Source of the DNA: Bdellovibrio sp. 22V
GTDB lineage: Bacteria > Bdellovibrionota > Bdellovibrionia > Bdellovibrionales > Bdellovibrionaceae
Direction: 5' to 3'
Assembly: GCF_030169785.1 (NCBI RefSeq)
Contig: NZ_CP125854.1
Coordinates: 1,178,001-1,242,000, forward strand
DNA: 64,000 nucleotides
Shown: one piece after another, positions 29,960 to 50,970 of the stretch
Numbering within the stretch: position 1 is the first letter of the stretch
How the letters are laid out: the number at the start of each line of letters is the position of its first letter
The notes under the pieces: model-generated
What the model was told of the DNA's origin: nothing
The model's database searches: none
What the model saw: the letters and a program-made list of their open reading frames with translations, nothing else
Made by a program: the position numbers and the translations under genes

Positions 29960-29983
29960 AGTCGCAAATAAAAAGGGACCCGC

Positions 29984-30002
29984 GTTCTATAATTTCCAGA
30001 AC
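29984..30002. promoter_or_regulatory. Palindrome GTTCT-N9-AGAAC, copy 1 (before kinase 1)
   Basis: Perfect ten half-site bases; spacer ATAATTTCC. It is centred about 63 bases before the kinase start at 30056 and lies just after the prepilin stop, giving the kinase its own control point. Confidence 0.75.
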
Positions 30003-30055
30003 AATAAAAGAATATCGAATATCCAGATCTGTCTTTGTAAAACCGAATAATATTT

Positions 30056-31471
30056 ATGAGTGAACTTCAAAGCATTGGCTCTTACGATTTGTTAAAACTG
30101 CTTGCGACTGGCGGGATGGCGGAGATTTATCTAGCGAGGTCAAAAACTTTAAAGGGCAAGATTGTTGCGCTTAAAAGGACCATTCCAGATCTTATCGACA
30201 GTCCTGAGATGAGCATAATGTTCACTGACGAAATGAAAGTGGCGGCTTGTTTAAATCACCAGAATATCGTTCAGACTTTTGATTTCGGATTTGTGGAGTC
30301 CCGCGCCTATTTAGTGATGGAATACATTCACGGGGTTTCACTGCGCGATCTCCTTCGCGTACTGCGAGGCAAAACTGAATTTCTAAAGATCCCGGTTATT
30401 CTCTATATCGTTAAGAAGGTGGCCGAAGGGTTGGCCTATCTCGCAAGAGTTCCAGATCCCGTAACGGGTGCACCTTTGAGTCTTATTCATCGGGATCTCA
30501 GCCCGCATAATATTATGCTCACGTATGAGGGCGAAGTGAAGATCATCGATTTTGGCATCGCCAAGGGAGTTTCAACAACACAAACCCAGCATGGCGTTAT
30601 CAAGGGAAAATTCGCCTATATGAGTCCCGAACAAATGCGGGGCGAGGACATAGACCAACGAAGTGACCTGTTTTCTTTAGGAGTCATTTTTTGGGAAATG
30701 CTGAGCAACAGCCGCTTTTTTTCGGGAAACTCAGTCAATGATCTCTATCATGTGGTTAGTAATTATCGATTGGAAAATATTGACTGTTCGATGTGGGGAC
30801 CTCTTGAGCCGGTTTTGCGAAGACTGCTGCATCATGATGCCAAACAAAGATACATATATGCATCTGATTTAGCTAGGGACTTGCAACGGCTTTTAAATCA
30901 ACTTGCTCCGCAATTTTCGTCGGAAGAAATATCTTATCTTTTGAAAGTTAAGTACTTTCGCAGAGACTATGAACTTTCCTTGAGCGAAATACGAAGACTG
31001 CAGACGCCAGAGCCTGTAAATATTCCTGTTTTCGTTTCGACTCTGCCGGAAGAAACAAGTGGGGAAACTGTCACAAGGGCCGCAGCGGCGAACGATTTCG
31101 CGAGCACTTTTGCATTCAGATTTAAAGAATATATTTCGATAGGTTTGCTAATCTGTCTCTTTGCCATTTACAAATATACCAACAAGAGCGGCTATCCTGC
31201 GCCGAGCACGATTGAAAGAAATGCATCGGCCATCTCTGAAGTTTATTTTCCTATCGCATTTTATACCGTGCCATCTCAGGCGAAAATTGAGGTGGACGGT
31301 AAAGTTATAGGTTCGGCAGGCATTGCCTTTGTGAAGATGAAAGAGAAAACATCTTATTTAGTCAAAGCCTCCAAACCCGGATATGCGACACGGGTTTTCA
31401 CATTCTCTCCGACGAAGCCGGCCCGATATGAAATTCACTTATCCAAAAAAATCGCAAAGGGGGACAGATGA
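30056..31471 (+). CDS. Membrane Ser/Thr protein kinase with PEGA-like extracytoplasmic domain (kinase 1)
   Basis: 471 residues. A Hanks-type kinase domain fills about 9-275: glycine loop LLATGGMAEIYLA, VALKR (catalytic Lys), HRDLSPHNIML, DFGIAK, 'GKFAYMSPEQ' and the conserved Arg region. All catalytic residues are present, so it should be active. 'HRDLSPHN' is the variant common in myxobacteria and Bdellovibrio. One membrane helix (YISIGLLICLFAIYKYT, about 362-378) leads to a small PEGA-like domain at the end (YTVPSQAKIEVDGKVIGSAG... VKASKPGYATRVF). It lacks a clear ribosome binding site. The next gene overlaps by ATGA. The N9 palindrome at 29984 lies upstream. Confidence 0.93.
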   Translation: MSELQSIGSYDLLKLLATGGMAEIYLARSKTLKGKIVALKRTIPDLIDSPEMSIMFTDEMKVAACLNHQNIVQTFDFGFVESRAYLVMEYIHGVSLRDLLRVLRGKTEFLKIPVILYIVKKVAEGLAYLARVPDPVTGAPLSLIHRDLSPHNIMLTYEGEVKIIDFGIAKGVSTTQTQHGVIKGKFAYMSPEQMRGEDIDQRSDLFSLGVIFWEMLSNSRFFSGNSVNDLYHVVSNYRLENIDCSMWGPLEPVLRRLLHHDAKQRYIYASDLARDLQRLLNQLAPQFSSEEISYLLKVKYFRRDYELSLSEIRRLQTPEPVNIPVFVSTLPEETSGETVTRAAAANDFASTFAFRFKEYISIGLLICLFAIYKYTNKSGYPAPSTIERNASAISEVYFPIAFYTVPSQAKIEVDGKVIGSAGIAFVKMKEKTSYLVKASKPGYATRVFTFSPTKPARYEIHLSKKIAKGDR

Positions 31472-32168: not shown

Positions 32169-32711
32169 TTACTTGAGTTCACAATTTCCGATATTGAAAA
32201 GGACGATATCATGTTTGTCTAAGACACCTTTTTGAAAGGCGGCGGCAACGGCACGATCAATCATCAAAGAATCGCCGCCCCTGTATCCTGGGTATTGCAA
32301 TCCTGCCGCGTGCATTTTTCGTACGAACTGCGGTGTGAAGTCACATTCAGAATAGATCGAGATAAGGTCTTCGGCATCATTTTTCGACGTGGCTAATATC
32401 TCGCGAGCTGTTGCGATTCTGCCTTCGCTATCAGACATAGAAACTTGAACTTTGTAAATACCAAGCGCCTCTGTTTCTTCGGCAGCACATAGGGAAAGCG
32501 TCATATTCTTGACTGTCGTGGTAGCACATTTACTTGTATCTGTGACGGGCGCAGCTGCGAGGACGAATTCATCATCCATAGGAACTAAGCCAATATGCGA
32601 AGCTGTCACCATTTGTACGCCACATTGCATGGTTCTGGCGTTTGCAGAAGAGTAAGCTCCTAAACTCAAAGACATAAGTGCAACCGGAATAGTGCTTCTA
32701 AGACTCAACAT
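32169..32711 (-). CDS. Secreted protein of unknown function, coupled to a TIGR02147 regulator
   Basis: 180 residues with signal peptide (MLSLRSTIPVALMSLSLGAYSSANA-R) and five cysteines in the mature part (MQCGV, SKCAT, LSLCA, SECDF, NCELK). Its start overlaps the upstream TIGR02147 gene by 14 bases, so translation is coupled. No enzyme motif. The same layout, regulator followed by an overlapping secreted-protein gene, repeats at 35044-33585. The conserved region 'GYRGGDSLMIDRAVAAAFQKGVL' is not recognised. Confidence 0.78.
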   Translation of the reverse strand: MLSLRSTIPVALMSLSLGAYSSANARTMQCGVQMVTASHIGLVPMDDEFVLAAAPVTDTSKCATTTVKNMTLSLCAAEETEALGIYKVQVSMSDSEGRIATAREILATSKNDAEDLISIYSECDFTPQFVRKMHAAGLQYPGYRGGDSLMIDRAVAAAFQKGVLDKHDIVLFNIGNCELK

Positions 32712-33498
32712 GTTTTTCCAATTCTGAAGACAGCTCTTTCTTCGTCAGCGGGACAAAGGATACGTTCAACAAATAAACTTCTTTTTTAGGAGCATTCGCT
32801 CGGCCCAAATATTCGGCGCATTCGTTCACGAAACTGATGGATTTAGAGTGAATGTAATCTCGGTCTTCTTGGGAGGTCGCAACAAGCATATAGCCCGAAG
32901 AGACATCATCCAAAGGTAATTTCCGAACAGAACCTTTTATTATTTCCAAGAGTTCGTCATGAGTTTTAATAATAGCTTCGCGACTGTCATCGTCGGCAAA
33001 TTTAATATTATTGTTATGAGCGGGAGTGAGTTTATTAAACTGGCTGCGTCTGATCGCCTCAATCTTGAGTAAATCTGCAAGGGCCTTTTCGACGCTTTCG
33101 ACCTGAATACCCAATCTCTTGGCGATCCAAGCAGGGTCTTCGTTAAAGTCTTCCGTTTGCATGAGTTCAAGAATAGCGAGATAAAACCAATTTGACGCCG
33201 TTTCAGTCATCGCTTTCGATTCAATGTGAAATGTTGAAAAGACAGCAGAGGTTTGATCATCCAAAATTTGGAGCAACTCTTCGTTTTCAGAGAAAGCGGC
33301 CTTTAGTTTTGCGATCGTTTTAGGCGAGATCTTTCTTTTACCTTTAAGAATTTCGTTGAGAGTTGTACTTGTTAAACCAATCTGCTGCGCAAACGCCCTT
33401 TGCGAGAAGCGCGGATTTTTTTTCTTCTTCTGCTCGATTATTTGCGAAAGATATTCTTTGATATCGTGTTTTAGAAGTTTCTTCCAGCCGCTACTCAT
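32698..33498 (-). CDS. TIGR02147-family regulator 1
   Basis: 266 residues of the TIGR02147 family, common in Bdellovibrio and Fibrobacter. Residues 1-75 form a helix-turn-helix (FSQRAFAQQIGLTSTTLNEILKGKRKISPKTIAKLKAAF). The remainder is the DUF4423-like domain, with a second winged-helix-like section (WIAKRLGIQVESVEKALADLLKIEAI) and the family end 'EVYLLNVSFVPLT'. It is predicted to bind DNA; signals and targets are unknown. It overlaps a secreted-protein gene downstream. It is a candidate binder of the GTTCT-N9-AGAAC palindromes of this region, although none lies directly before it. Confidence 0.88.
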   Translation of the reverse strand: MSSGWKKLLKHDIKEYLSQIIEQKKKKNPRFSQRAFAQQIGLTSTTLNEILKGKRKISPKTIAKLKAAFSENEELLQILDDQTSAVFSTFHIESKAMTETASNWFYLAILELMQTEDFNEDPAWIAKRLGIQVESVEKALADLLKIEAIRRSQFNKLTPAHNNNIKFADDDSREAIIKTHDELLEIIKGSVRKLPLDDVSSGYMLVATSQEDRDYIHSKSISFVNECAEYLGRANAPKKEVYLLNVSFVPLTKKELSSELEKHVES

Positions 33499-33584
33499 GA
33501 TTCCCCCGCAATAGCCAGAAAAATTCTTACAATCTTTCCGTGCTATTTGCCAGTGAGGGAGGTCAGGAACCGTTCTCTATTTTT

Positions 33585-34286
33585 TTATTTTTGCAGAACA
33601 ACCTCTGGGTTTTGTCCTAAAAGACTTTTTTTAATTTGCTCATACTTCTGACGGGTTAAAACAGCTTTCGCAAGAACGTGAGAAGAGAAGTATCGCACTT
33701 TTTCCGAAGAGGAAATATGGGGATTAATTTTAAGTGCGGCTTTGTAGACAACCTCGTGCATTAATAGTGCGACTTTATCTGCAACACGCAAACGCAGCCA
33801 CAAAGGCTTCGAGATAAAATATGTATAATCCTCTTCAAACTCTTTAACGTGTTGAATTGCCAGTTGCTGTAATTCGCATCCGGCAGGAACAAAGCTCAAC
33901 CCGACATCGTCAGTGGAAGAAAGGGTGCCATTAACAAAGAGGGCATCTAGCGCGAATCTTCCCAGAAGACGAGACAGCTCTGCCGCGAATATAGGATCGT
34001 AGGCTTTGATTTTATCGAGACTTTTTTCCGCAAGCTCAAGGCTTGGAGTCAGGCATGGAGTCAATATCTCCCAACCTCGAGTCTCAGGAACGTCGCATAC
34101 AGAGTCGGTAACGTCCTCAAGCTCGGGGGTAAGATTGTAACGCTGTTTGGATTCGTAAGTATCGTAAAAGAACACCTGGTGGGTCTCTTTACAGACGATT
34201 CCTTTTCCACCATTGCCAAATTCCGTGGATCTTGCGTTGGCGAAAGAGACAGACAGAAAAAGAGTAAAGAAGATCAGGTTCTTCAT
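33585..34286 (-). CDS. Secreted protein of unknown function, coupled to TIGR02147 regulator 2
   Basis: 233 residues from ATG at 34286 (AGAGGAAC upstream; signal peptide MKNLIFFTLFLSVSFANA-R). An in-frame start at 34328 would only add a cytosolic leader. The mature part begins with STEFGNGGKGIVCK, a phrase typical of a group of Bdellovibrio secreted proteins, and includes 'VALLMHEVVYKAAL', an HExxY helix that resembles but is not an HExxH zinc site. Four cysteines. The ATG overlaps the stop of the upstream regulator as ATGA. Confidence 0.8.
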   Translation of the reverse strand: MKNLIFFTLFLSVSFANARSTEFGNGGKGIVCKETHQVFFYDTYESKQRYNLTPELEDVTDSVCDVPETRGWEILTPCLTPSLELAEKSLDKIKAYDPIFAAELSRLLGRFALDALFVNGTLSSTDDVGLSFVPAGCELQQLAIQHVKEFEEDYTYFISKPLWLRLRVADKVALLMHEVVYKAALKINPHISSSEKVRYFSSHVLAKAVLTRQKYEQIKKSLLGQNPEVVLQK

Positions 34287-35044
34287 GAAGAGGTTCCTCT
34301 TTGTGTTAAAGGATAGATCTGAACGCATACGCTATAAACTTCCGTTTTCTCACCTTGCTCTAAAAGTTCATTTGCTTGCTTGCGAAACTCTCGCGCCAGC
34401 ATTTTTACTTTGTAGATGTTTTCGGGGTTGCTAGGAATAATAATGGAAGTTATGTCGCGAATATCGACTGGATCCCGTATTAAAGAATCTAAGCCTTTGT
34501 TGATAAGCTGATTGTGAAAGTATTTTAACGCGGATGAGGGAATGTCACTGGTGGAAGTAAGATTTTTATAGGTTGGAGCATATCCCTTTGGCGTGTTCTT
34601 AATAAGACCGCTTTTAAGAAGTTTATTCAGGGAATCTTGGACAGTTTCGGGTGCTAAGGCCAGACGTTGTGCGATAACCTCGACGTCACTTTGGAAAGAA
34701 GTCGTCTCCATCAGATTGAGAATGGCATAGTGATACCACTCGGGCAAAAAGGCGTAATCTTTTTCGGTGAGCTGGTGGGCGTTTCGAGAATCCTTAGCGC
34801 GATGACGTGTTTTTTCGATTAAGTAGTTTAGATACTCGACTTCGGATTTATTAAGGTGAAGTGATGTGGCCAGGCGCCGACGAACAATTTTTCCGGGAAG
34901 AGCTTTGCCAGTGACGATATTGGAAACGCGGCTCGGGGAGACCTTGAGGTCCCGAGCAAAGGCGCGCAGTGAGTAGTGAGGATTTCTAAGGCGCCTTTTT
35001 TCTAAAACTTTATTTATGAGTTCCGCGACTTCCCCGTACTTCAT
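34283..35044 (-). CDS. TIGR02147-family regulator 2
   Basis: 253 residues, ATG at 35044 chosen because the family starts a few residues before the HTH (MKYGEVAELINKVLEKRRL); earlier codons to 35098 look like leader. The HTH is 'YSLRAFARDLKVSPSRVSNIVTGKALPGKIVRRRLATSL' and the domain end is 'VYSVCVQIYPLT'. It is a paralogue of the regulator at 32698-33498 with the same downstream arrangement. A perfect GTTCT-N9-AGAAC palindrome lies 66 bases before the start (35110-35128), so it may be autoregulated. Confidence 0.88.
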   Translation of the reverse strand: MKYGEVAELINKVLEKRRLRNPHYSLRAFARDLKVSPSRVSNIVTGKALPGKIVRRRLATSLHLNKSEVEYLNYLIEKTRHRAKDSRNAHQLTEKDYAFLPEWYHYAILNLMETTSFQSDVEVIAQRLALAPETVQDSLNKLLKSGLIKNTPKGYAPTYKNLTSTSDIPSSALKYFHNQLINKGLDSLIRDPVDIRDITSIIIPSNPENIYKVKMLAREFRKQANELLEQGEKTEVYSVCVQIYPLTQRGTSS

Positions 35045-35109
35045 GCGGGCGAACCTACGTAAAGCCACGCTTTTAAGCAATATCTGCCTATGATACAACG
35101 CGAAAAACT

Positions 35110-35128
35110 GTTCTGAAAAAACCAGAAC
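35110..35128. promoter_or_regulatory. Palindrome GTTCT-N9-AGAAC, copy 2 (before TIGR02147 regulator 2)
   Basis: Perfect half sites; spacer GAAAAAACC. It is 66 bases upstream of the regulator start on the minus strand and 117 bases before the first ATG of the aspartic protease unit on the plus strand. Confidence 0.75.
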
Positions 35129-35244
35129 ACCCCTGTTCGGCAGGTTCAGGTGAGATTTAGAACTTTGGCTTCGTATAAGGAAGTCTTATTCAGCGCATAG
35201 CTTTGCTTATAGACGGCACCCAAGTTAAATTCATAACATCAAGT

Positions 35245-35313
35245 ATGAAATCAGTTTTGGCATGTTTGATACTGGTGAACATCTCCTGGGTGCGCAATCA
35301 ATCAAAGAATTGA
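35245..35313 (+). other. Signal-peptide-like reading frame cut by TGA, in frame with the protease gene
   Basis: ATG at 35245 reads MKSVLACLILVNISW and VRNQSKN, then TGA (35311-35313). Three codons later, in the same frame, is the GTG used as start of the aspartic protease at 35323. Without the TGA the two would make one secreted protein. No good ribosome binding site precedes the ATG, so it may also be chance. Confidence 0.4.
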
Positions 35314-35322
35314 GGATCGTCG

Positions 35323-36096
35323 GTGAAAGTAAATTTTGTTGCAGATGCAGATGAACCAGAAGCAGGCCAAATTTTTGCGCACTTGATCTTTGATGGGCAT
35401 TCTGAAAAATGCTTTTGGGATACCGGAGCTACGTCGACAAAAGTTGTTTCGAACTATTTTTTCGCAAAATATCCTATAGTTAAAGAGGGTGAGTTAGCGG
35501 GCCTTGCGGGAAAAGGGGTGTCGGCGGCTCGAATCCAAATTCGTAACATTTCTTGGGGAAACTATTCGCTAGGGCAACATGAAGTCATGCTACTCTCTGA
35601 AAAACTAGGTATTTCTCCCACTGCGGGCATTGATCTATTCAAAGAGAACCGATTCGGCTTAGATTCAAAAACCCAAGAAGTAAGCTTCGAAAAACAGGAT
35701 GCCAGTCTGACTTTCGAGCTCGGAACCTTCGGACACATTTTGGTGTCACCAGTTTTCAATGGGCTTCGTTTGCATTTAATTTGGGATACGGGTGCTGGTC
35801 TTACAACGATTGATCAAAAAGTTATTGATGAGAATCCAAGTATTTTTAGCTTTATTAAAAGCCTAGATGTCGGTGATACGGTTCACGCAAAAGCAATGCA
35901 GCTTAAGTTATATGAAGCGACAAACTTTGCTATCGGCTCTGTATCTCTTAAGAAAGTACAGGTTTTGGGAGCAGATTTCAGTTCAATCAAATCAAAGCTG
36001 GGCGCCCAATCAATTCAAGGTGCACTAGGATACAACGTGATTACTCACTTTAGTTGGTACTTCGATCTACAAGCAAAGAAGTATTCGGTCAGATAA
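35323..36096 (+). CDS. Retropepsin-like aspartic protease with two DTG motifs
   Basis: 257 residues in two similar halves, each with a catalytic-type aspartate motif: WD33TGATSTKV and IWD155TGAGLTTI, each followed by a hydrophobic-Gly section ('GIDLFKENRFGLD', 'ALGYNVITHFSWYFDL'). This is a pepsin-like tandem of retropepsin folds within one short chain; bacterial retropepsin-like proteins more often have one. The start is GTG with GAGGA upstream. No signal peptide is encoded in this frame from the GTG, but one is present upstream beyond an in-frame TGA, so export of the current product is doubtful. A terminator follows at 36127. Confidence 0.8.
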   Translation: MKVNFVADADEPEAGQIFAHLIFDGHSEKCFWDTGATSTKVVSNYFFAKYPIVKEGELAGLAGKGVSAARIQIRNISWGNYSLGQHEVMLLSEKLGISPTAGIDLFKENRFGLDSKTQEVSFEKQDASLTFELGTFGHILVSPVFNGLRLHLIWDTGAGLTTIDQKVIDENPSIFSFIKSLDVGDTVHAKAMQLKLYEATNFAIGSVSLKKVQVLGADFSSIKSKLGAQSIQGALGYNVITHFSWYFDLQAKKYSVR

Positions 36097-36126
36097 CACT
36101 TGTTTTTTGAGTCCAACTCCATTCGC

Positions 36127-36161
36127 AAAGCGCTGAATTCTTATCAGTGCTTTTTTATTTT
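36127..36161 (+). terminator. Terminator of the aspartic protease gene
   Basis: AAAGCGCTGA / TCAGTGCTTT stem (one G-T pair) followed by TTTATTTTT. Confidence 0.8.
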
Positions 36162-36167
36162 TAAATT

Positions 36168-36186
36168 GTTCTAAATAAAACAGAAT
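36168..36186. promoter_or_regulatory. Palindrome GTTCT-N9-AGAAT, copy 3 (no obvious target)
   Basis: Nine of ten half-site bases; spacer AAATAAAAC. It lies in the gap between two 3' ends, so no gene start is near; the 57 bases up to 36243 hold no convincing gene. It may be a relic of a lost gene. Confidence 0.6.
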
Positions 36187-36243
36187 GAGCCAATCCCTTA
36201 TATCGAAACTCACTGGCAGGCTGAGGCTAACTAGCTAGCATTC

Positions 36244-36600
36244 TCATAGCGATTGTGTTGAAGGAGATTTTAGTTTCTGACAAAACTTTAGAGTAACAAA
36301 AACGGTTGGTGTAACGACGTGAAAGAGAAGAAGTGGACTCTGGTCACCGAAGATGTTGGAAAAAACTGTGTATGTAAACAGTTGGGAGACAGTGACGACT
36401 AAAAATAAAGCTATTCCCCAATTTTGACGTCGCCATAGGCCCACAGAAGCAAGTAAATCAAAAATCGTAAGATAGATTATCCAAGTTTTCCAAATGTTGT
36501 CCATTTCGCTAAACTTTAAACGCAAGTCGAACAGATCCGCTATGTGCAGCAAGCCACCAAAGAAATACAAAAGCGCGAGAATTCGAAGATAGAGTTTCAT
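36244..36600 (-). CDS. Small four-helix membrane protein, unknown
   Basis: 118 residues, nearly all in four hydrophobic helices (YLRILALLYFFGGLLHIADL, 'TWIIYLTIFDLLASVGLW', 'WGIALFLVVTVSQLFTYTVF', 'LLLFHVVTPTVFVTLKF'). The 'GGLLHIADLFDLR' start resembles small inner-membrane proteins of the DoxX-like size class, but I cannot assign a family. The ATG has only a weak ribosome binding site. It follows the broken zinc-protease gene on the same strand by 68 bases. Confidence 0.7.
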   Translation of the reverse strand: MKLYLRILALLYFFGGLLHIADLFDLRLKFSEMDNIWKTWIIYLTIFDLLASVGLWRRQNWGIALFLVVTVSQLFTYTVFSNIFGDQSPLLLFHVVTPTVFVTLKFCQKLKSPSTQSL

Positions 36601-36668
36601 AAATTAGAGAATGCCATTCACTGGAAACCCGGTCAAAGGCGGCTGATGGACTCACACTAAAGTGTCAA

Positions 36669-37691
36669 CTATCGACAGGGGACTCCCATATCGCAAAGGA
36701 CAGCGGCATCAAGATTTGAAACGCGAATTCTCAAACCTTGATCTGCGCGGAAAAGCCATGCTCCGCCCATCAGTCCTTGAAGGCTTTTCGCTGACTCATT
36801 GCTGGCAGTATAACGACCGTAATGAGTTAGGTTCTGAGAGGGATGTAAGGTGGCGATGTAATTCACACCTGCAATCGAATAGGTGTTAGTGCGGGAGTCT
36901 GGAAATGTAAAGAATGTCACTGGAAGTTTGCTTCCGTAGGCCGTGAGTGTTTTAGCGCCAGTAAAGACGGGGGAACCGCTCAGGTTTGTTTCATACATCA
37001 GAGAATCAAAGACAGAGATTCCATTGTGCGCGGGAACGGCTCCCGTCGAACGCTCAAGAAAGCCGTTAAAGCCCAACCCATGCCCTAACTCGTGCGCGAA
37101 GACTGTGACCAGATCGACTTTTCCTACAGGGACGGGAAGAGTTCGCGTCTCTGGTTGAGGATCAATCCAATAAGCCTGCCGCATGAAATTCACATTGATA
37201 TCAAGATAAATGTCAGGAAGCCGAGGCTCGGGGTCTTTGCCTGTTCTCAGTTTGTAAGGAGCAATGTCTTCAAAGACATTGTGTCCATTCGCCGTTTTTA
37301 GAAAAACAGAAGTTCGCGAAGCTCCCGAGAAGCGGGCTTGATCATTGTTGATACGAACTAAAATTCTTATCGGCGCTTTGCCATAAATGTAGCGGCCCCA
37401 GTCCTGACAAGCGGCCTAAAGGTTCTTTAGAATGAGATCTCGGTCTGCGCCTAAACTATTTTGGGGGTCATCAACGGTGACCGTATAGTTAAATTCGGTT
37501 GTTGTGGTTACAGGTGTCGGACGGAGCTTGAACGCCGTTGTATCTTCTGGAGAAGAGGTTGCTTCTAATGGCGAGACTGATTTGCCAACGGGAGCGCAAT
37601 TTTGAAATGAAACTAACAGCGCCGCAAGAATAAGGACTTTGGTGAAACTTCTTTTTAAAGTCACAGAAACCCCCTGAAAAAACGATAGCAA
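36669..37691 (-). pseudogene. Lipoprotein zinc protease (HELGHGLGF) interrupted by an in-frame TAG
   Basis: One continuous frame of 341 codons is broken only by TAG at codon 92 (37418-37416). Before it: a lipoprotein signal (LKRSFTKVLILAALLVSFQNC-A) and a Thr/Pro-rich linker ending in DRDLILKNL. After it: AACQDWGRYIYGKAPIRILV, 'RFSGASRTSVFLKTANGHNVF', then H200-E-L-G-H204 in VTVFAHELGHGLGFNGF, and a Cys-containing end. HELGHGLGF is the zinc site of a zincin group in which the third ligand is not the classical His at +11. Translation as written would give a 91-residue lipoprotein stub and an unexported fragment (possible GTG restart at 37193). So it is a recent pseudogene, a readthrough gene, or a sequence error. 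Confidence 0.8.
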
Positions 37692-37749
37692 ATTTATATT
37701 TTCAAATGAATGGATATGATCCTTGAAAGGGATTCCTTTATCAGATTGT

Positions 37750-37768
37750 GTTCTAAAAAAAAGGGAAC
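37750..37768. promoter_or_regulatory. Palindrome GTTCT-N9-GGAAC, copy 4
   Basis: Nine of ten half-site bases; spacer AAAAAAAAG. It lies between the start of the broken zinc-protease gene (minus, 58 bases away) and the small secreted-protein gene (plus, 123 bases away) and could serve either. Confidence 0.65.
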
Positions 37769-37891
37769 GTTATTAATTGAGGCGCTCAGTGAATGTCTCT
37801 TCGGGAAGACTCGATTGTAAACTTCACAACAGGACTTCTCATTTTGGAGGAGGCAGGGTAGAAACACTATGCAAAATCAATGGAGGTTCTT

Positions 37892-38266
37892 GTGAAGTCG
37901 GTCATGTTCGTATTCCTATCTTTATTTCTGTCTCTTTCCTGTTTTGCTGAGCAGCTCGAATTGCCATTGGAACCAAAACAGTGCATCGAAATCAACCAGG
38001 CTAAAGCTGTTTTGAACAATTATCTTGCGCCTCTCGTGGGCCAGTCTTTGAATGATGAATTTTATTGGATCATCGACGGCGAATATACTCTAACGACAGA
38101 CGACGTGAAACGCGCTTTGAAATCTTTAACTTGGAATGCCAAGTCCTTCAAATACCAAACGTCTGCGATCATTGACGGTTACTGTGCGGCGGGCGCTTCA
38201 TGCTGGGGTTGGTACACAGTGGACTGCGCTGGAAAAATTGATGCCCTCGTTGACGGCGAAGACTAG
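37892..38266 (+). CDS. Small secreted protein of unknown function
   Basis: 124 residues. The start is GTG at 37892 because GGAGG lies five bases before it; the ATG at 37880 overlaps that site. Signal peptide MKSVMFVFLSLFLSLSCFA-E, then a mature domain of ~100 residues with four cysteines, the last three in 'DGYCAAGASCWGWYTVDCAGK'. The cysteines suggest a disulfide-stabilised secreted domain. No known family. Palindrome copies flank it at 37750 and 38279. Confidence 0.75.
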   Translation: MKSVMFVFLSLFLSLSCFAEQLELPLEPKQCIEINQAKAVLNNYLAPLVGQSLNDEFYWIIDGEYTLTTDDVKRALKSLTWNAKSFKYQTSAIIDGYCAAGASCWGWYTVDCAGKIDALVDGED

Positions 38267-38278
38267 GTCCTCATCACA

Positions 38279-38297
38279 CTTCTAAAAAGAACAGAAC
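38279..38297. promoter_or_regulatory. Palindrome CTTCT-N9-AGAAC, copy 5
   Basis: Nine of ten half-site bases; spacer AAAAAGAAC. It lies 108 bases before the HNH-like zinc protein gene at 38405. Confidence 0.65.
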
Positions 38298-38404
38298 GAC
38301 ATCGGTTCAACACAATCCACAAAGGCTTGTGAGAATGCCCAAGATTGAGTTTCTAATAATAACTGTACACGACAGTATTATGACTGCTTGAAGGGGAGAC
38401 AGAG

Positions 38405-38695
38405 ATGGGCATTCTTTCTGGTTGGAAAAACAAAGGTGGGACCGCAAACCGTTCTTGTGCAAAGTGCGGCTCATGGCGAGATCATTGGCAAAAGAAAGCC
38501 TTGGTGGTTTGGCCCATTTACTGTGCGGTTCAAGGTTGTACGTCAAGAGCGATGCTCGGCGCTCACGTCCATAACAAGGAAATCTCGGGAGAGCGCATTA
38601 TTCCGATGTGCCATGAATGCAATACTAAAGATGAAAACGTGATATTTTCAATTAAGCCAGGAACTCAGTACCCAAGCGCCAATCAATGCACTTAA
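38405..38695 (+). CDS. Small HNH-like zinc-binding protein
   Basis: 96 residues with AAGGGGAGA before the ATG. Zinc ligands are regularly placed: C18-x2-C21 with H27 (CAKCGSWRDHW), C40-x4-C45 (CAVQGC), 'LGAH54VH' and C69-x2-C72 (PMCHEC). The 'GAHV-x10-RIIPMCHECN' part is the shape of a beta-beta-alpha-metal (HNH) finger, with the final 'CHxCN' helix. A DNA-binding or nuclease role is possible; the full catalytic H-N-H set is not obvious. It has no signal peptide, unlike its neighbours. Confidence 0.7.
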   Translation: MGILSGWKNKGGTANRSCAKCGSWRDHWQKKALVVWPIYCAVQGCTSRAMLGAHVHNKEISGERIIPMCHECNTKDENVIFSIKPGTQYPSANQCT

Positions 38696-38717
38696 GATTT
38701 CTCCAAAGCGAAATTAT

Positions 38718-39761
38718 TCACGGAAGAATGTGGGTTGTTGCCGAAATAAATGGAGCGAGTTCCTTCGCTGTAAGCCAGACATTCCCTTTATCGCAGCGAT
38801 CCGCAGGAAAGCGGCTGGAAGGGCACCATGATGTGCCCCAGGTGTTGCGAAGTTTAAATTCGCATGTTTTTGTCTTGGTATTCCATCTTCGACCGACAAT
38901 AGAGCTTGCATGGGTAGGCATGCTAGGGCGGACACGAGCGTCATCTCCGAAAATTTTCTGCGCATCATAGGATATAATTGTCGGAATATTTTTACTTAGA
39001 TTTTTGTTCACCTGAGCCATGTTCGCGCTTGGAGAACCCCATGTTGAAGATGGAAGAAGGGGTTTTGTTAAGGGCATTCTGTTAGAGCAGGAAGCTTCGA
39101 TTTTACCGAGAACTTTGTTTTTGTTCCCTTTGTTTATAATATCCGTGATGACGCCAGTTAAGTTTGTTAATTCTGAGTCAGAAAAAAAAGGTGGGCATTC
39201 AAAGGGTTTCGTTGTGTTTTGCGCTCGAACGTACTCTAAAGCCAGAGACTCATAAATATAGTTTTCTCTTTCTTTGCGAGCTAGAGGCAGCTCGGAAGGC
39301 AAATTCCGTTCGGTGCATACTCCCGATTTATTATTATAGGAGAGCAAAGAGAGATCGGACCATCCTCCTTGCATTTGCATGACATTAGACGGGCGATCTT
39401 TAAGGGAACTCCATATCATGGCGCTATGATCGTCGTAGAGCTTTCTATTCTCCGACGTAGAGGGAAGTGCTTTCCGAGTCCAGACGTCGTTCAGGATTCT
39501 AATAAAATCTTCTCGCTCGTTCTTGTAATACTGTAAGGCGACGTCAAAGGCAGAAACACGATTTGTTGGATCTAGTTTCAAATACTCAGTCATGACGTCG
39601 GCACTGGCGAAGGCAAAACACCATCCGATAGAACCTTGGTCTCGTACGGGGCCCATGTGAGTAGAGGCATCAACAGCAGAACAGTCTTTCTTGGAAATTT
39701 CTTGGGTGAAGGCGGGGACAGCCATAAGCAATTGAAGCATGGTCAAAAGGCCCAAAATCAT
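38718..39761 (-). CDS. Secreted papain-family (C1) cysteine protease
   Basis: 347 residues with a signal peptide (MILGLLTMLQLLMAVPAFT-Q). The catalytic Cys region is classical: GPVRDQGSIGWC-FAFASADVM, with the oxyanion Gln before it. The catalytic His is in 'PTHASSIVGRRWN' and the Asn in 'FKLRNTWGTSWCP'. There is little room for a pro-domain (about 20 residues), and the chain between Cys and His is long with several cysteines. An extracellular or periplasmic protease, plausible in prey digestion. It converges with the HNH-like gene (22-base gap). Confidence 0.9.
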   Translation of the reverse strand: MILGLLTMLQLLMAVPAFTQEISKKDCSAVDASTHMGPVRDQGSIGWCFAFASADVMTEYLKLDPTNRVSAFDVALQYYKNEREDFIRILNDVWTRKALPSTSENRKLYDDHSAMIWSSLKDRPSNVMQMQGGWSDLSLLSYNNKSGVCTERNLPSELPLARKERENYIYESLALEYVRAQNTTKPFECPPFFSDSELTNLTGVITDIINKGNKNKVLGKIEASCSNRMPLTKPLLPSSTWGSPSANMAQVNKNLSKNIPTIISYDAQKIFGDDARVRPSMPTHASSIVGRRWNTKTKTCEFKLRNTWGTSWCPSSRFPADRCDKGNVWLTAKELAPFISATTHILP

Positions 39762-39835
39762 TTTCCACTCCCCCTTTTATTGATTCTCGGAAGGATAATG
39801 AGAAAACTCAAGGCCCTTTTTAGAGAGTCTGTTCC

Positions 39836-39867
39836 CAAAAACGCGCGCGCAAGTTTATTGCGTGCGC
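39836..39867 (-). terminator. Rho-independent terminator
   Basis: On the minus strand GCGCACGCAA-TAAAC-TTGCGCGCGC followed by GTTTTTGGG; one G-T/A-C position in a ten-base stem. It ends the gene at 39881. Confidence 0.8.
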
Positions 39868-39880
39868 CTTCGTTTACTTT

Positions 39881-40642
39881 CTAATTCGCCGCTACTTGGC
39901 ACGAAGGAATTCCAGTTCTCAAAAGGTCCTTTATATCTGAATTCCTGCCCATGTCATTCTGACGAATTTCTTCAAGAAGAAAAAGTTTAATGAAGTTGCC
40001 GAGTTCATCGTTGGCCCTAGGGTCATTTTTGGCGATGAGTAATAGATCGTTGTCCTTTGTTCCTTTTTTTAAAATCTTTCGTGCCACTTCCGCGAAGCTA
40101 AATAGCGGGGATCGGTAAACGACGTTTTCGATAAGCGGAGTCAGTTTTAAAACGATCCAATATTGTTCCACTCTATTTACTGCGGCGGTATCGGTTGAAA
40201 CAACGATTTCGAAACGAATTTTTTGCGTATTGTCCTTCGGAAACTGCGGAATATCCATAGAGAACACTGGAGAGTCGAACGACTCCACGTTTAACTTCAG
40301 CAATTCACCTTGCTCATTGTAGAAGCGATAGTTGACTTTGGGGGAAACATGCAAAGCTTGAACACGCGCTAAAGTTTCGTTTTTAGCAACGGCTTCGCGA
40401 TTCGTATTGGGAGTGTTGCGGGATATGAGATCCGTCACCCCACTCATTTTGAAATTATGGGAATGGCCTTTATAGTCGATAATCTCGAAGCTTGCGCGGT
40501 GATATCCTTTTTGCGTGAGTTCTGCTTCCGTTAAAAGATTTGTGACGATGGCGCAGCTTTGGTGCTGAACAGTGGAGGCTGACGGGGCTGCAACAGCGGA
40601 CGCCGCGCACAGGAAGGCTGTTAAGAACGTAAGACTTTTCAT
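39881..40642 (-). CDS. Secreted protein of unknown function
   Basis: 253 residues with a signal peptide (MKSLTFLTAFLCAASAVAA-P). Only two cysteines in the mature part (C31 region 'HQSCAIV' and near the end 'PSCQVAAN'). The middle is beta-rich ('KVNYRFYNEQGELLKLNVESF', 'KIRFEIVVSTD') and the end helical. No family recognised. A GTTCT-N9-AGAAT palindrome lies 91 bases upstream (40733-40751), so it may belong to the regulon. Own terminator at 39836. Confidence 0.75.
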   Translation of the reverse strand: MKSLTFLTAFLCAASAVAAPSASTVQHQSCAIVTNLLTEAELTQKGYHRASFEIIDYKGHSHNFKMSGVTDLISRNTPNTNREAVAKNETLARVQALHVSPKVNYRFYNEQGELLKLNVESFDSPVFSMDIPQFPKDNTQKIRFEIVVSTDTAAVNRVEQYWIVLKLTPLIENVVYRSPLFSFAEVARKILKKGTKDNDLLLIAKNDPRANDELGNFIKLFLLEEIRQNDMGRNSDIKDLLRTGIPSCQVAAN

Positions 40643-40732
40643 AAAGAACTCCTCTTGGTTAAGTTTCCAATCGAAGGTTCATGTTCCAAGGATTATGCCA
40701 CTGGAAACTCGCGCTTATTGCACAACCTACAT

Positions 40733-40751
40733 GTTCTAAAAAACGCAGAAT
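40733..40751. promoter_or_regulatory. Palindrome GTTCT-N9-AGAAT, copy 6
   Basis: Nine of ten half-site bases; spacer AAAAAACGC. First of three copies in the 329-base gap 40643-40971, which holds no gene. Nearest start is the secreted protein at 40642 (minus). Confidence 0.7.
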
Positions 40752-40830
40752 ATTGAGTTCGGTCGATGAGTAGTGATTAAGGAATATACCTGTGTGACGA
40801 GAAATGTGTCTCGTCGAGAGAATAACGAGC

Positions 40831-40849
40831 ATTCTGGAAAATTCAGAAC
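40831..40849. promoter_or_regulatory. Palindrome ATTCT-N9-AGAAC, copy 7
   Basis: Nine of ten half-site bases; spacer GGAAAATTC, identical to the spacer at 50929. Its centre is 49 bases from copy 8. Confidence 0.7.
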
Positions 40850-40879
40850 ATCTCATTTCATTTTATCTCTCTCGAGCAT

Positions 40880-40898
40880 GTTCTAAATGAACCAGAAC
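40880..40898. promoter_or_regulatory. Palindrome GTTCT-N9-AGAAC, copy 8 (before the AP-linker lipoprotein)
   Basis: Perfect half sites, extended to ATGTTCT...AGAACAT; spacer AAATGAACC. It is followed by TATCAAAG, as is the copy at 42015. 74 bases before the lipoprotein start. Confidence 0.75.
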
Positions 40899-40971
40899 AT
40901 TATCAAAGTTCTAGGTATTTAGTCTGGCCGTTGAGAGGCCGATTTAAATACATGGTTCAAAGGGGGAATGA

Positions 40972-41925
40972 ATGAAACCATTGTTATATACTGCGAGAGC
41001 AGTTGCGGTCCTTTTTTTAGGAAGTATGACGGTACTTTCTTTTCAAAACTGTTCACCGCAACAGTTTGCGCCATCTGATGTGGCGTCATTGAAATCTCAA
41101 GGCGCTTCAGGTCGTTTTGGGACATCAAACGATGACCCGTCTATGGGCGGTCCTGCGATGCAACTCACGGATAATTCAATCAGTAACGGTTCTATGGTGC
41201 TAAGAATTACGCAGACACTTATGAATGCTGAAACGGGAGTGAGAGCCTGCACAGTTCTCGCGACCCAAGCAATGCGCTACTGTACAAGTGATTCTGAATT
41301 TCGTGTCATAGGTGGATCCGGCGATTCGTGGCGATACAATAATGTCACACACTCTTATAGCGCGGACTTTAGCGTCGAGGGAGCGGGATGGCCTCACGCT
41401 GAATACATCACCCGTTACATCGCGAGTAATGGTGAGAGATATGAGTTCCGTTTTACGCCCAGAATCGTTCAGTCGAATCAACCGGCACCAGCTCCAGCAC
41501 CGTCGGCGCCTGCTCCAGCACCCGCACCTGCGCCAGCTCCCTCGACGGGTTCTGGTTCAGGATCAACGGATATTTCTGGTGGAGGAGACTGGCCATTGCA
41601 CTTCTATGATTACTCAACGAGCGATGGCACGAAAGTGCTTCGTGTGACTCAACGTTTTGTCGGAGCCAAAAAATACGCGGGCAGTCCTGTTCTGCGCGGT
41701 TGTACGGTGACCGCGGCTCAATCGGGAACTTACTGCATAAATGATTCTGAGTTCCGTGTCATTGGTGGCGCTGGTGATACATGGAAATACGACGCAGCGA
41801 CAGATACATATTCAGTGGATATGGATGTCTCAGCATATAACTGGCCGCAAACGGTTTACTTCACTCGCTATATTTTTGCGAATGGAAGTCGCGGCGAGTT
41901 TTCATGGGCGCCAAGAAAAAGATAG
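40972..41925 (+). CDS. Lipoprotein with two tandem homologous domains joined by a Pro-Ala linker
   Basis: 317 residues, strong GGGGG site. The lipobox is LSFQNC. Two ~95-residue domains are clear duplicates: 'MVLRITQTLM... RACTVLATQAMRYCTSDSEFRVIGGSGDSWRYN... WPHAEYITRYIASNGERYEF' and 'KVLRVTQRFV... RGCTVTAAQSGTYCINDSEFRVIGGAGDTWKYD... WPQTVYFTRYIFANGSRGEF', each with one Cys pair. Between them is a (PA)n linker of about 30 residues and a Gly/Ser stretch. This is a surface-displayed bead-on-string design. The domain is unknown to me. It has a palindrome upstream and a terminator at 41949. Confidence 0.82.
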   Translation: MKPLLYTARAVAVLFLGSMTVLSFQNCSPQQFAPSDVASLKSQGASGRFGTSNDDPSMGGPAMQLTDNSISNGSMVLRITQTLMNAETGVRACTVLATQAMRYCTSDSEFRVIGGSGDSWRYNNVTHSYSADFSVEGAGWPHAEYITRYIASNGERYEFRFTPRIVQSNQPAPAPAPSAPAPAPAPAPAPSTGSGSGSTDISGGGDWPLHFYDYSTSDGTKVLRVTQRFVGAKKYAGSPVLRGCTVTAAQSGTYCINDSEFRVIGGAGDTWKYDAATDTYSVDMDVSAYNWPQTVYFTRYIFANGSRGEFSWAPRKR

Positions 41926-41948
41926 AACTCTAAGTTAAGGTTTATTTT

Positions 41949-41987
41949 AAAAGGTCCCTGCAGAATTGTGGGGACCTTTTCCTATTT
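41949..41987. terminator. Terminator after the AP-linker lipoprotein
   Basis: AAAAGGTCCC / GGGACCTTTT perfect ten-base stem, twelve-base loop, followed by CCTATTTTT. Confidence 0.85.
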
Positions 41988-42014
41988 TTATCAACGCATT
42001 CGTCATCAGAAAAC

Positions 42015-42033
42015 ATTCTGAATAAAACAGAAC
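42015..42033. promoter_or_regulatory. Palindrome ATTCT-N9-AGAAC, copy 9 (before the fibre operon)
   Basis: Nine of ten half-site bases; spacer GAATAAAAC, then AATATCAAAG. It lies 88 bases before the small lipoprotein that heads the fibre and NHL genes. Confidence 0.75.
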
Positions 42034-42120
42034 AATATCAAAGACGAAAGGGTCAAGAAGTGGTGAAGCTCAGTCGATAAAGTATATGAGTTTTCTTTTG
42101 GGAGCGGATCGTGAGGGACG

Positions 42121-42381
42121 ATGAAGAAAAGTCATTTTAAAATTATCATTTGCTCTTCTTTACTGTGGTTGTCAGCGTGTTCTTTCGAAGCCAGTATTTC
42201 GGGGCTTGAAAGTGAAATAAATCCTTCTTTGGATTCCTTGCAGCGTAAACAGCCTGATTTTGTTTCCGGTGAAGTTGTGACGACTTCAAGTGGTGTCGTT
42301 ATCACGGGGACTTTTGGGGAGATTTCCGAAACTAAAAAAGTATCCTCTGAGATTACGATCCAAGGGGCCTTTTATGAATAA
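42121..42381 (+). CDS. Small lipoprotein heading the fibre operon
   Basis: 86 residues, GAGGGACG site, lipobox LSAC-S after a hydrophobic helix (IIICSSLLWLSAC). The short mature part is Ser/Glu/Thr-rich, with a possible beta-hairpin (VVTTSSGVVITGTFGEISE). Its stop overlaps the start of the fibre gene by eight bases, so it is coupled and could be the anchor or assembly factor of the fibre. This is inference from position only. Confidence 0.8.
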   Translation: MKKSHFKIIICSSLLWLSACSFEASISGLESEINPSLDSLQRKQPDFVSGEVVTTSSGVVITGTFGEISETKKVSSEITIQGAFYE

Positions 42382-45208
42382 GATCTTTGTTGTTTTCTTG
42401 ACCATCAGTTTGTTCACTACCGGAGTTTCCGCACAAACTCATAAAGGAATTAATTTTCAAGGGGTAATAAAAGTCGGGACTGAGTATCCCACACGATCGG
42501 GTATTACAATCAACGCACGCATCCTTTCATCAACGGGTTGTATTTTGCGTGAAGAAAGTTTTAGCGGCGTTAACATTTCGAACGGATATATCAATATACC
42601 CATCGGCAAGGGGAGTGTTGGAGGTTACGATCCTGGATTGACTCTGGCGCAGGTCATGGACAATTCAAAGATTATCGCAAATGGTCCCTCTCGTCCTGCG
42701 GGATTGGTGTGTTTGGATTCTGACGGAGTTGTGGATGGAAGTGTCACCTCGTTTGATCCGTCTCTTTCTGACGGGGTTAGAAAATTTCGCTTAAGTCTGG
42801 TGTTGGACAGTATTCCGGTAGTTGCTGATTTCAATATGAGATCTGTGGCTTACGCCGTGAATTCCGAAACAGTCAACGGCAAAAAAGACACCGACTTTGT
42901 AAACATCAATTCAGCGCAAGGTGTTTCGCAAGCGAATGTTGAGAGTATTTTCAGTCGTTTTACTCAACTGGATTCGATTTTAAATAATTTCAATCTTGCC
43001 GGTACGACGGCGGGAATTAATATCACAGGGAATGCGGCAACAGCGACGACGGCAACAACGGCGACCACAGCAACAAACGTGAGTGGTGTGGTCGCGCTTG
43101 CTAATGGTGGTACCGGAGCAAGCACGGCGGCGGCGGCCAGAACGAATTTAGGCTTGGGTGCTTTAGCGACCTTGAATCCCACAGGAACGGCCGACAATAC
43201 GACATTCTTACGTGGAGATGGAACTTGGACGGCTGTGAATGGCGGAGATATCGCTGGTTTGGGAATGGCGGCGACAAAGGATGCCGGAACCAATGCTGGC
43301 AATGTCTTACTGTTGGCAAATTCCAATCAGCTTCCGGCATTGGACGGCAGTTTATTAACGAACGTCGTGGGAACAGATAATACAAAGCTGCCTTTGTCAG
43401 GTGGAACAATGAGCGGAGCCATTAATATGGGTGGCAGTGACATTCTTAATATCGGGCACTTGACGATGGCTGCGCAGAAAACTTTGCGTTTGGGAACTTA
43501 TACAAACGGGCAGCAGGCTTCGCTCGTAGCTACTTTGGATTCGTCCTATAAAGGAACGACTTGGTACAACAGCGAAACAAATAAGATGATGTATTGGGAT
43601 GGGGCCTCTGCGCTTGCTCTGGGAAATGGAACAGGGAATGTGTCTTCGGTAACGGGAAATGCACCAATAGTTGTCGATAATACTTTGCCTGCGATGCCTG
43701 TCATCAGTTTAGGAAATGTGGATGCCAGTAAAATCGCAACAGGAACATTGGCCCCCGCCCGCTTAGGAAACGGCACGGCGGATAGTACAAAATATTTAGC
43801 GGGAGATGGAAATTGGACGGCGTTTCCAAGCACCTTGTCTCCTTCAAGTGTTTTTGCGGGTGATGTGAGCGGTACTTCCGCAACGATGAGTGTCGATAAG
43901 ATTAAAGGTAAAACCGTATCACCTGTGGCGTACTCGGCGGGACAAGTTCTGCGTTATGATGGTACGAATTGGGTGAATGCCGCAATTAATGCAGCGACGG
44001 ATCTTACGGGAGCTCTTGCTGTTGGTAATGGCGGTACAGGGGCGACGACCGCTGCCGGAGCAAGAACAAATTTGGGATTAGGATCTGCGGCGACAGTCGA
44101 TGCAGGATCGGCGGCGGGGAATGTTCCTCTTTTAGGTATTGGTGGTTTAGTCGCAAATAAAATTTGTACTTCTGACGGTACAGCGAGTGGAATTATTTGT
44201 AGCACGACGATGCCGGCAAGTTCGCAGTGGAGCACCTCAGGAGCAAATATTTACTACAATAGTGGCAACGTGGGTATTGGCACCAGTGCGCCGGAAAACA
44301 TCCTTGATGTTCGCGGAGCACTCTCCATCGGTACGCTGAACAAGAACGTGACAAATACGAATGCCCAGATTCATTTAAAATCTTCCAGCAACCCGCACCT
44401 TCTCCTCGAGAAAGTCGGTTTGACCGTCGCGGGTTTTTCAATCGACGATAGCAAAAACATGCTTATTGCCTCTGAAAGTGGAGGCATAACTTTCCGTACA
44501 GGCGTTGTCAACTCAAGCAATTTTACTACGACAGGAACCGAACGCATGCGCATCGACTTGTCGGGTAACGTCGGTATTGGAACCGCGACGCCGTCGTATC
44601 CGCTGGATGTGAGAAGTTCTACGGTGACCGCCAATTTTGTTTCCTCTAGTACGAGCAACCCGGCGTCTCTTCGAGTGGGTAACGGACTAAGTCCGGCGGT
44701 GCTGGGCATTGAAAATGCTGCTGGCGCCTCTTTGTTTGCAGATACAGCCCCCTTGGCAACGGTCGTCGGCTCCAACAACGCGAGCGCTTTACAGCTGGTC
44801 ACGAGTGGTCTTGCGCGAGTGAGCGTATTGGGAACTGGGGCGGTCGGTATCGCAACAAGTACTCCTCGTTCAGCTTTGGATGTCAGCGGGACCATCTTGA
44901 CGAAACCTGCGGCCGACACCGGTGTCGCGAGCACGATAGATTTTTCCTCCGGAAATTTAAAATACACAACACGAGATTGTGGTTCGTATCAGTTTAATAA
45001 TTTGCAAGATGGCGGTCAGTATTCGTTCGCTGTTCAAGGAACGAACTCGGCCTTGTGTGACTTCACGGCTTTTAGTGACAATGGAATAACTCCCTTGACG
45101 GTGCATCTGCCGCCGAATCATACAACAACGACATCAGGCAAACATACGCTATATTCGTTGATGGTGATGGGAACGCATGTATATGTGGCTTGGGTCTCAG
45201 GGTACTAA
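42374..45208 (+). CDS. Long fibre protein of phage-tail-fibre / MAT type (fibre 1)
   Basis: 944 residues from ATG at 42374, overlapping the lipoprotein gene. Signal peptide MNKIFVVFLTISLFTTGVSA-Q. A globular N-terminal domain (about 20-200) is followed by triple-beta-type fibre repeats: 'VALANGGTGASTAAAARTNLGLGALATL', 'NTTFLRGDGTWTA', 'ALAVGNGGTGATTAAGARTNLGLGSAA', then 'NVGIGTSAPENILDVRG' and 'NVGIGTATPSYPLDVRS' heads and a small C-terminal domain (about 860-944) ending HVYVAWVSGY. No Peptidase_S74 motif at the end, unlike fibre 2. Such mosaic trimeric fibres are known prey-contact proteins of Bdellovibrio (MAT family). An ~85-residue block is nearly identical to fibre 2. Confidence 0.85.
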   Translation: MNKIFVVFLTISLFTTGVSAQTHKGINFQGVIKVGTEYPTRSGITINARILSSTGCILREESFSGVNISNGYINIPIGKGSVGGYDPGLTLAQVMDNSKIIANGPSRPAGLVCLDSDGVVDGSVTSFDPSLSDGVRKFRLSLVLDSIPVVADFNMRSVAYAVNSETVNGKKDTDFVNINSAQGVSQANVESIFSRFTQLDSILNNFNLAGTTAGINITGNAATATTATTATTATNVSGVVALANGGTGASTAAAARTNLGLGALATLNPTGTADNTTFLRGDGTWTAVNGGDIAGLGMAATKDAGTNAGNVLLLANSNQLPALDGSLLTNVVGTDNTKLPLSGGTMSGAINMGGSDILNIGHLTMAAQKTLRLGTYTNGQQASLVATLDSSYKGTTWYNSETNKMMYWDGASALALGNGTGNVSSVTGNAPIVVDNTLPAMPVISLGNVDASKIATGTLAPARLGNGTADSTKYLAGDGNWTAFPSTLSPSSVFAGDVSGTSATMSVDKIKGKTVSPVAYSAGQVLRYDGTNWVNAAINAATDLTGALAVGNGGTGATTAAGARTNLGLGSAATVDAGSAAGNVPLLGIGGLVANKICTSDGTASGIICSTTMPASSQWSTSGANIYYNSGNVGIGTSAPENILDVRGALSIGTLNKNVTNTNAQIHLKSSSNPHLLLEKVGLTVAGFSIDDSKNMLIASESGGITFRTGVVNSSNFTTTGTERMRIDLSGNVGIGTATPSYPLDVRSSTVTANFVSSSTSNPASLRVGNGLSPAVLGIENAAGASLFADTAPLATVVGSNNASALQLVTSGLARVSVLGTGAVGIATSTPRSALDVSGTILTKPAADTGVASTIDFSSGNLKYTTRDCGSYQFNNLQDGGQYSFAVQGTNSALCDFTAFSDNGITPLTVHLPPNHTTTTSGKHTLYSLMVMGTHVYVAWVSGY

Positions 45209-49283: not shown

Positions 49284-49384
49284 AAAGATCCCCTTCCCCA
49301 AAAAGGATTCTCTATTGTTCGGTACGATGATCCGAAAAGTTGACGTGAAGGACGTATCGTTTTTGGTCAATCGAAAGGATTAAT

Positions 49385-50912: not shown

Positions 50913-50928
50913 GTACTTATAAATTGAT

Positions 50929-50947: not shown

Positions 50948-50970
50948 ACTTCAATTCATGAAGTTTCGCT

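Follow-up and report, generated by a model that had tools for sequence, protein, structure and literature searches.

The 64,000-nucleotide (nt) stretch of the Bdellovibrio sp. 22V genome analysed here (NZ_CP125854.1, positions 1,178,001 to 1,242,000; the window, in whose numbering coordinates are given below) carries two consecutive gene pairs, in each of which a TIGR02147-family regulator gene overlaps that of an exported protein. Pair A represents a module of regulator and exported protein that recurs across the phylum. The initial annotation had suggested a paired system as yet undescribed in this regulator family. This proposal is supported for pair A, whose partner belongs to a conserved exported family that was linked to a TIGR02147 gene at all 56 loci examined, and is not supported for pair B, which is probably not a dedicated pair. 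The module supplies a regulator family of no stated function with a strict partner, a candidate type of operator and a testable role.

Regulator A (34283–35044, 253 amino acids (aa)) combines an XRE-type helix-turn-helix (HTH) at its N-terminus with a winged-helix DUF4423 region, and its stop codon shares an ATGA (34283–34286) with the start of partner A (33585–34286, 233 aa), which is assigned to an exported family, here termed GNGG/HExxY, by its signal peptide and by homology to the partners of other TIGR02147 regulators. Regulator B (32698–33498, 266 aa), which belongs to a TIGR02147 clade without exported partner, overlaps partner B (32169–32711, 180 aa; exported as judged by its signal peptide, without family match) by 14 nt (32698–32711). 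All four genes lie on the reverse strand, and the coordinates and both overlaps given in the initial annotation were confirmed from the sequence. Both regulators exceed the curated cut-offs of TIGR02147 (regulator A 86.7 bits, regulator B 77.4, cut-off 50) and of DUF4423 (PF14394; 145.3 and 98.8 bits, cut-off 30); in a Pfam scan HTH_3 scored 27.9 for regulator B, over its cut-off of 23, and 17.8, under it, for regulator A. An AlphaFold model of regulator A (mean predicted local distance difference test (pLDDT) 60.7) features an N-terminal unit of five helices and a unit resembling a winged helix; for this model Foldseek returned only generic HTH and winged-helix matches, none of them at E ≤0.001. 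Signal peptides were called for partners A and B and for all surveyed open reading frames (ORFs) with a heuristic devised for this analysis, by which the N-termini of both partners are signal-peptide-like. Longer in-frame starts are present for regulator A (TTG at 35098) and partner A (ATG at 34328); of the partner A starts, the one at 34286 is the best fit to the signal peptide.

The entry for TIGR02147/DUF4423 gives no function; TIGR02147 takes its name from Fibrobacter (model name Fsuc_second). In the open-licence literature we found no paper on TIGR02147, none that ties TIGR02147/DUF4423 to an exported partner, and no description of this regulator family, this exported family and their strict pairing. 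DUF4423 appeared there in one paper, as an entry in a table (Bd3700, 2.67-fold).

Linkage of the exported family to TIGR02147 regulators

A profile search (E ≤0.001) detected the partner family in 63 of 114 Bdellovibrionota genomes. The window's own genome has eight such places, all of them beside a TIGR02147 gene (six downstream of the regulator, two divergent). Together with 29 loci read across the phylum, 37 of 37 loci had a regulator, in 35 cases upstream on the same strand (five of these with ~600 nt between regulator and partner) and in two divergently. A regulator was likewise present at all 19 places sampled from the weakest listed, a sample that left out one place at a contig edge: in 13 cases it is on the same strand and upstream, in five divergent (one ~1 kb away) and in one the order is reversed. 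In total, linkage was read at 56 of the more than 150 places listed phylum-wide, and all 56 have a TIGR02147 gene within ~2 kb; as coupled partners were the basis of the profile, it would miss a too-distant uncoupled branch.

A profile scan of genome contigs found one locus (L181, Bdellovibrio sp. BIN15), in which the regulator stops just 5' of the partner start. An independent case is plasmid pBdHAGR1 of Bdellovibrio sp. HAGR004, a record unused in building the description of the module. Here HAGR004_40930 and HAGR004_40940, which are annotated as hypothetical proteins, share an ATGA overlap; HAGR004_40940 has a signal peptide at its start, IGNGGNE and later LHELLSL (HELL), and upstream of the regulator, 51 nt from its start, is GAACA-CTT-TGTTC. 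Relatives of regulator A were encoded by one plasmid record and by none of the phage records, and no relative of partner A was found among viral contigs. The plasmid pair adjoins an IS66 element (L274, pBdHAGR1 33277–42062), which suggests that such pairs can move. We also observed a three-gene variant (L066, L143, L196, L203, L204, L207 and L209), with a lipoprotein-like gene or a gap of ~600 nt between regulator and HExxY partner.

The survey suggested by the initial annotation, of TIGR02147 genes in Bdellovibrionota followed by an overlapping signal-peptide gene, was carried out from the regulator side. The family is present in all 20 relative genomes searched. The 3' flanks of 147 distinct regulators were inspected and 142 of these regulators counted (five were short or near a contig edge), and 312 control genes, from the same genome, were scored by the identical rule; outside three genomes (G000, G011 and G019) mostly the best-scoring regulators were sampled, so the coupled fraction cannot be taken as unbiased across all genomes. 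A signal-peptide ORF was present within 300 nt downstream of 93 of 142 regulators and of 97 of 312 controls. It started at or before +20 in 74 versus 30 (Fisher p 4e-22) and at or before 0 in 55 versus 14 (p 1e-19), and the commonest offset was the ATGA-type −4 (34 of the 93 partners). Coupling of the regulators to signal-peptide genes across the family thus strongly exceeds chance. The window's genome alone has 22 TIGR02147 genes (split matches merged), ten with an overlapping or abutting downstream signal-peptide gene. About half of the regulators are therefore coupled, by the count in this genome as by the 74 of 142 in the 20 genomes, and most TIGR02147 genes standing alone, the outcome named in the initial annotation as contrary to its proposal, was not found.

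Coupling clusters on the regulator tree. In a quick tree of 186 regulators, labelled by partner type (HExxY, other G-rich, TGNP lipoprotein, other signal-peptide partner, none), the labels need 50 changes compared with 91 when shuffled, and most paired regulators fall into one weakly supported set. Regulator A sits among paired regulators in a 26-row starred set (20 HExxY, six none). Another starred set, of 18 regulators, has no exported partner in any row; this lineage (L002 and orthologs) is kept across genus and order, never with an exported partner and often with a longer open frame. In L001, L029, L055, L056 and L113 the TIGR02147 gene is paired with a lipoprotein whose lipobox is followed by a TGNP motif, and four of these five form a starred set.

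Conserved features of partner A and its family

The initial annotation had described the secreted partners as different in sequence, which is correct within the window. Beyond it, partner A has homologues among the partners of many other pairs, in its own and in other genomes (36.5% identity to one in genome G011, E 4e-37), with weaker matches in other families. The alignment of the family was extended to 78 distinct rows. Gly27, the last residue of the GNGG motif (residues 24–27; 34206–34217, reverse strand), is conserved in 76 of them, Asp42 in 76 and Asp127 in 75. His177 and Glu178 (33753–33758, reverse strand), within HEVVY, are present in all 77 rows that have the residue, the remaining row having a gap. 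Tyr181 (73 rows), Ser194 (70) and Arg198 (71) follow. Partner A has every feature by which the family is defined, namely the signal peptide, Gly27, Asp42, Asp127, HExxY, the serine and the arginine. In 75 of 77 rows Cys32 and Cys137 are either both present (62 rows) or both missing (13), the other two rows being discordant, and this covariation fits a disulphide formed outside the cytoplasm.

Neither Pfam nor a sequence search of the PDB recognised the family: no Pfam family was common to its members (three families were hit, each in one of 23), partner A had no Pfam match, and the PDB returned none for the family. An exported family with an invariant possible active site, present in 63 of the 114 genomes, has thus escaped both resources. 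The partners of paired regulators range from 119 to ~500 aa; partners that differ in their later parts have a G-rich end in common. Some paralogous partners carry a full HExxH at a comparable place, and one of these reaches Peptidase_M10 (E 3.6e-5, 24.1 bits, cut-off 24). In a profile comparison of HExxY and HExxH partners the HE region was aligned with a probability of 79 (E 1.6e-5); a second HExxH set gave a probability of 3.6. Zincin ancestry of the family is plausible from these comparisons. Partner A was rejected as a canonical zinc metallopeptidase, its motif being HEVVY instead of the HExxH plus third ligand of a zincin and a Pfam peptidase match being absent. At one locus (L121:20-1459) the HExxY-family partner additionally has a sulfatase-modifying-factor domain (PF03781, E 5.5e-43).

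Upstream palindromes and a proposed mechanism

Perfect inverted repeats (arm ≥7, spacer ≤6) in the 150 nt 5' of the start were present at 46 of 100 paired regulators, compared with 10 of 57 unpaired ones, 42 of 324 control genes and 20 of 124 controls with free upstream DNA. The core NNNNCA-N3-TGNNNN was found at 21, 2 and 1 of the 100 paired, 57 unpaired and 324 control genes, respectively (p 2e-13). Palindrome centres are mostly 50–110 nt before the start, distances that may be off by some bases since regulator starts were chosen by expected length, and the arms differ between paralogs. These palindromes speak for local transcription control, and they turn the ~20–35 uncharacterised regulators per genome into individually testable circuits. 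Upstream of the orthologs of one pair (L005 type) a GGTAATTACC-like sequence is kept and its flanks have diverged. Allowing one mismatch or none, GGTAATTACC-like sites gave 62 matches, two of them exact, compared with 52 for a reversed control; with so many matches elsewhere, the idea that these sites are exclusive to their operon was discarded. In front of pair A, an inverted repeat noticed by eye, GAACA-GGGG-TGTTC (35125–35138, reverse strand), has a half-site in common with the palindrome at 35109 described below and may be the operator of regulator A.

The module itself, its linkage, conserved residues and cysteine covariation and the enrichment of upstream palindromes were shown computationally, and we consider it fairly probable that pair A is a dedicated regulator-effector operon, multiplied in Bdellovibrionota, that is autoregulated by a private operator and coupled in translation. 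The regulator, by its HTH and its winged-helix DUF4423 region, would bind the palindrome 5' of its own gene and set transcription of the two-gene message. Ribosomes that end the regulator would restart at the ATGA, and regulator and exported protein would be made together. The exported protein would cross the inner membrane, have its GNGG end linked to its middle by a disulphide and act in the envelope or outside via a zincin-like His-Glu site. In this way each exported protein would have a private, self-adjusting switch, and because each paralog has its own palindrome the circuits of the paralogs are probably insulated from one another. DNA binding and autoregulation, like translational coupling, export and the place and nature of the activity, are what we infer from these features. 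In its logic the module resembles known regulator-effector operons.

Several observations weigh against this model. At the threshold used, 54 of the 100 paired regulators lack a palindrome, and half-sites are alike only among regulators that are at least 45% identical (13 pairs). The clearest palindrome 5' of pair A fits the type of regulator B better, and the operator proposed for regulator A is a weaker guess. The structure model of partner A, computed from a two-row alignment (mean pLDDT 37.6), has an unusable fold. Finally, the divergence of regulators and partners is correlated only weakly (Spearman 0.14, with 63 of 2000 permutations as high), and the nearest neighbour was the same in six of 51 cases. 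Either the regulator and partner of a pair are not always inherited together, or the signal has become saturated; the weak co-divergence makes tight physical co-evolution less likely and favours transcription control over direct binding.

In RRNPP circuits (PlcR-PapR, Rgg-SHP, AimR-AimP) a cytoplasmic HTH regulator is directly followed by its exported product. The module has the same layout, and it is conceivable, if rather unlikely, that the regulator receives a signal from the exported protein, whole or as a fragment, as PlcR and Rgg do from exported peptides, with the GNGG end as common handle. The G-rich end shared by partners with different later parts would suit this role, and Foldseek ranked PlcR first for the regulator model, at an insignificant level (E 0.025, TM-score 0.23). 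However, partners of such length are not short peptides, the regulators have no TPR domain (no TPR match in a Pfam scan at E ≤1), and weak co-divergence is not what such a circuit would lead one to expect. The module further differs from RRNPP circuits by a folded partner with a conserved possible active site and by palindromes before the regulator itself. More speculative still is the idea that a predator genome holds dozens of insulated circuits in which the activity of each regulator depends on what becomes of the exported protein translated along with it (retained precursor versus exported product); the cell could then read channel by channel whether each protein leaves and arrives, for example on prey contact.

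We give little credence to a repressor with an antirepressor protease, in which the HE protein would cleave or block the regulator before export. ImmR-ImmA is such a system, made up of a repressor and a cytoplasmic HExxH antirepressor protease. Its likeness to the module lies in an HTH regulator with an adjacent, here overlapping, gene whose product has an HE-containing helix, and the full HExxH of some partners, with the Peptidase_M10 match and the alignment of the HE regions, points the same way. Most partners, partner A included, nevertheless lack the second zinc-binding histidine (a tyrosine in 73 of 78 rows). The signal peptides and the cysteine pair of the partners are typical of exported proteins, and partner A, with its signal peptide, its HExxY and no Pfam metallopeptidase match, is not of the ImmA type. 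BlaI/MecI regulators act with BlaR1/MecR1, a membrane receptor-protease. The winged helix of regulator A is weakly like the Penicillinase_R and MecI models (under cut-off), but the operon of the module has no membrane receptor-protease.

That signal-peptide genes follow these regulators by coincidence, in compact operons, fits pair B, where the relatives of either gene occur without the other kind of gene. For pair A coincidence is refuted by the linkage at 56 of 56 loci, and the tenfold odds over controls, the common G-rich end and the upstream palindromes likewise leave it very improbable as a general explanation. Least probable is a toxin-antitoxin-like unit with the regulator as antitoxin: the HTH part of the regulators matches HigA models and the pairs are small and overlapping, one of them on a plasmid, but the HigA matches are partial (27.9 and 17.3 bits, cut-off 47.7), model scans gave no toxin match for the partners, an exported partner is out of reach of a cytoplasmic antitoxin, and dozens of copies are stable in chromosomes.

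Pair B and its candidate sites in the window

The initial annotation took both pairs as one kind; the pairs differ. Partner B does not match the GNGG/HExxY profile, and of its relatives, found in four of 38 other genomes, none has a regulator in the flanks inspected (1.5 kb to each side). On the tree regulator B groups with two regulators that have no partner, and its nearest relatives in the window's genome have no exported partner, among them the closest (68% identical, 2867593–2868339 of the genome). A 52% identical relative in genome G077 likewise has no overlapping exported gene, the next gene starting 78 nt on. Because relatives of partner B stand alone and relatives of regulator B lack an exported partner, pair B is probably a one-off neighbourhood; taken alone, it may reflect chance or recent assembly.

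Upstream of regulator A lies the palindrome TGTTCTG-N7-CAGAACA (35109–35129, reverse strand), which we tentatively give to the type of regulator B. Three exact copies exist in the 3.6 Mb genome: this one before pair A, one before an S74 fibre gene, and one immediately 5' of regulator B's 68% relative (2.868 Mb). Three of the four one-mismatch places are in the same two neighbourhoods. Within the window, 13 matches with up to three mismatches compare with 3.1 expected, and nine of the ten with up to two mismatches are intergenic. Such sites, all on the forward strand, occur before a protein kinase gene at 30056 (29983–30003, two mismatches), between the divergent genes 40642 (−) and 40972 (+) (40732–40899; three sites, at 40732, 40830 and 40879, with two, two and one mismatches), before a fibre-like gene at 42290 (42014–42034, two mismatches), in the 48-nt gap that separates an esterase-like lipoprotein gene (−) from a kinase gene (+) (49384–49404, two mismatches) and before the S74 fibre gene at 51073 (50928–50990; one exact at 50928, one with two mismatches at 50970). 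The genes behind them include two protein kinases, the esterase-like lipoprotein, both fibre genes and further exported proteins; near the 68% relative, sites are located 5' of pilin-like genes and of a lipoprotein gene. Of 24 genomes of the genus, counting the window's own, 22 have no exact copy, and a single genome besides the window's has one. In G077 a two-mismatch site stands beside the 52% relative, and a match of this kind arose by chance in 38 of 200 shuffles. From this distribution, regulator B and not regulator A would read the TGTTCTG-N7-CAGAACA sites. Pairs A and B, 86 nt apart, presumably form one operon. Regulator B would act independently of regulator A on surface genes in its vicinity, the pair A operon included.

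The S74 fibre gene (51073–55950) encodes an exported protein of 1625 aa with a C-terminal S74 domain (PF13884 Peptidase_S74, E 2.2e-11). Export and this chaperone-protease domain are its likeness to the MAT fibres of Bdellovibrio and place it with the MAT type; 13 of 21 MATs are reported as exported with a C-terminal S74 domain, in passages that name no regulator (PMC10769870). The site-based link to a DUF4423 regulator suggested here is new. The regulator B sites are concrete candidates for the control of a phage-tail-like fibre gene, of a type reported to recognise prey. Genome-wide, three of 15 S74 matches are within 5 kb of a DUF4423 gene, where roughly one is expected, a difference that is not decisive.

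The fibre-like gene (42290–45208) encodes an exported protein of 972 aa, with a regulator B-type site in front. The two serine/threonine kinase genes (30056–31471 and 49419–50912), each behind a TGTTCTG-N7-CAGAACA-like site, encode proteins with a predicted C-terminal membrane segment. The divergent neighbour of pair A (35323–36096), with which it has the upstream region including the 35109 site in common, encodes a predicted aspartyl protease (PF13650, E 1.6e-9), and an ORF at 36669–37193 contains HELGHGLGFNGF and possibly encodes an exported metallopeptidase.

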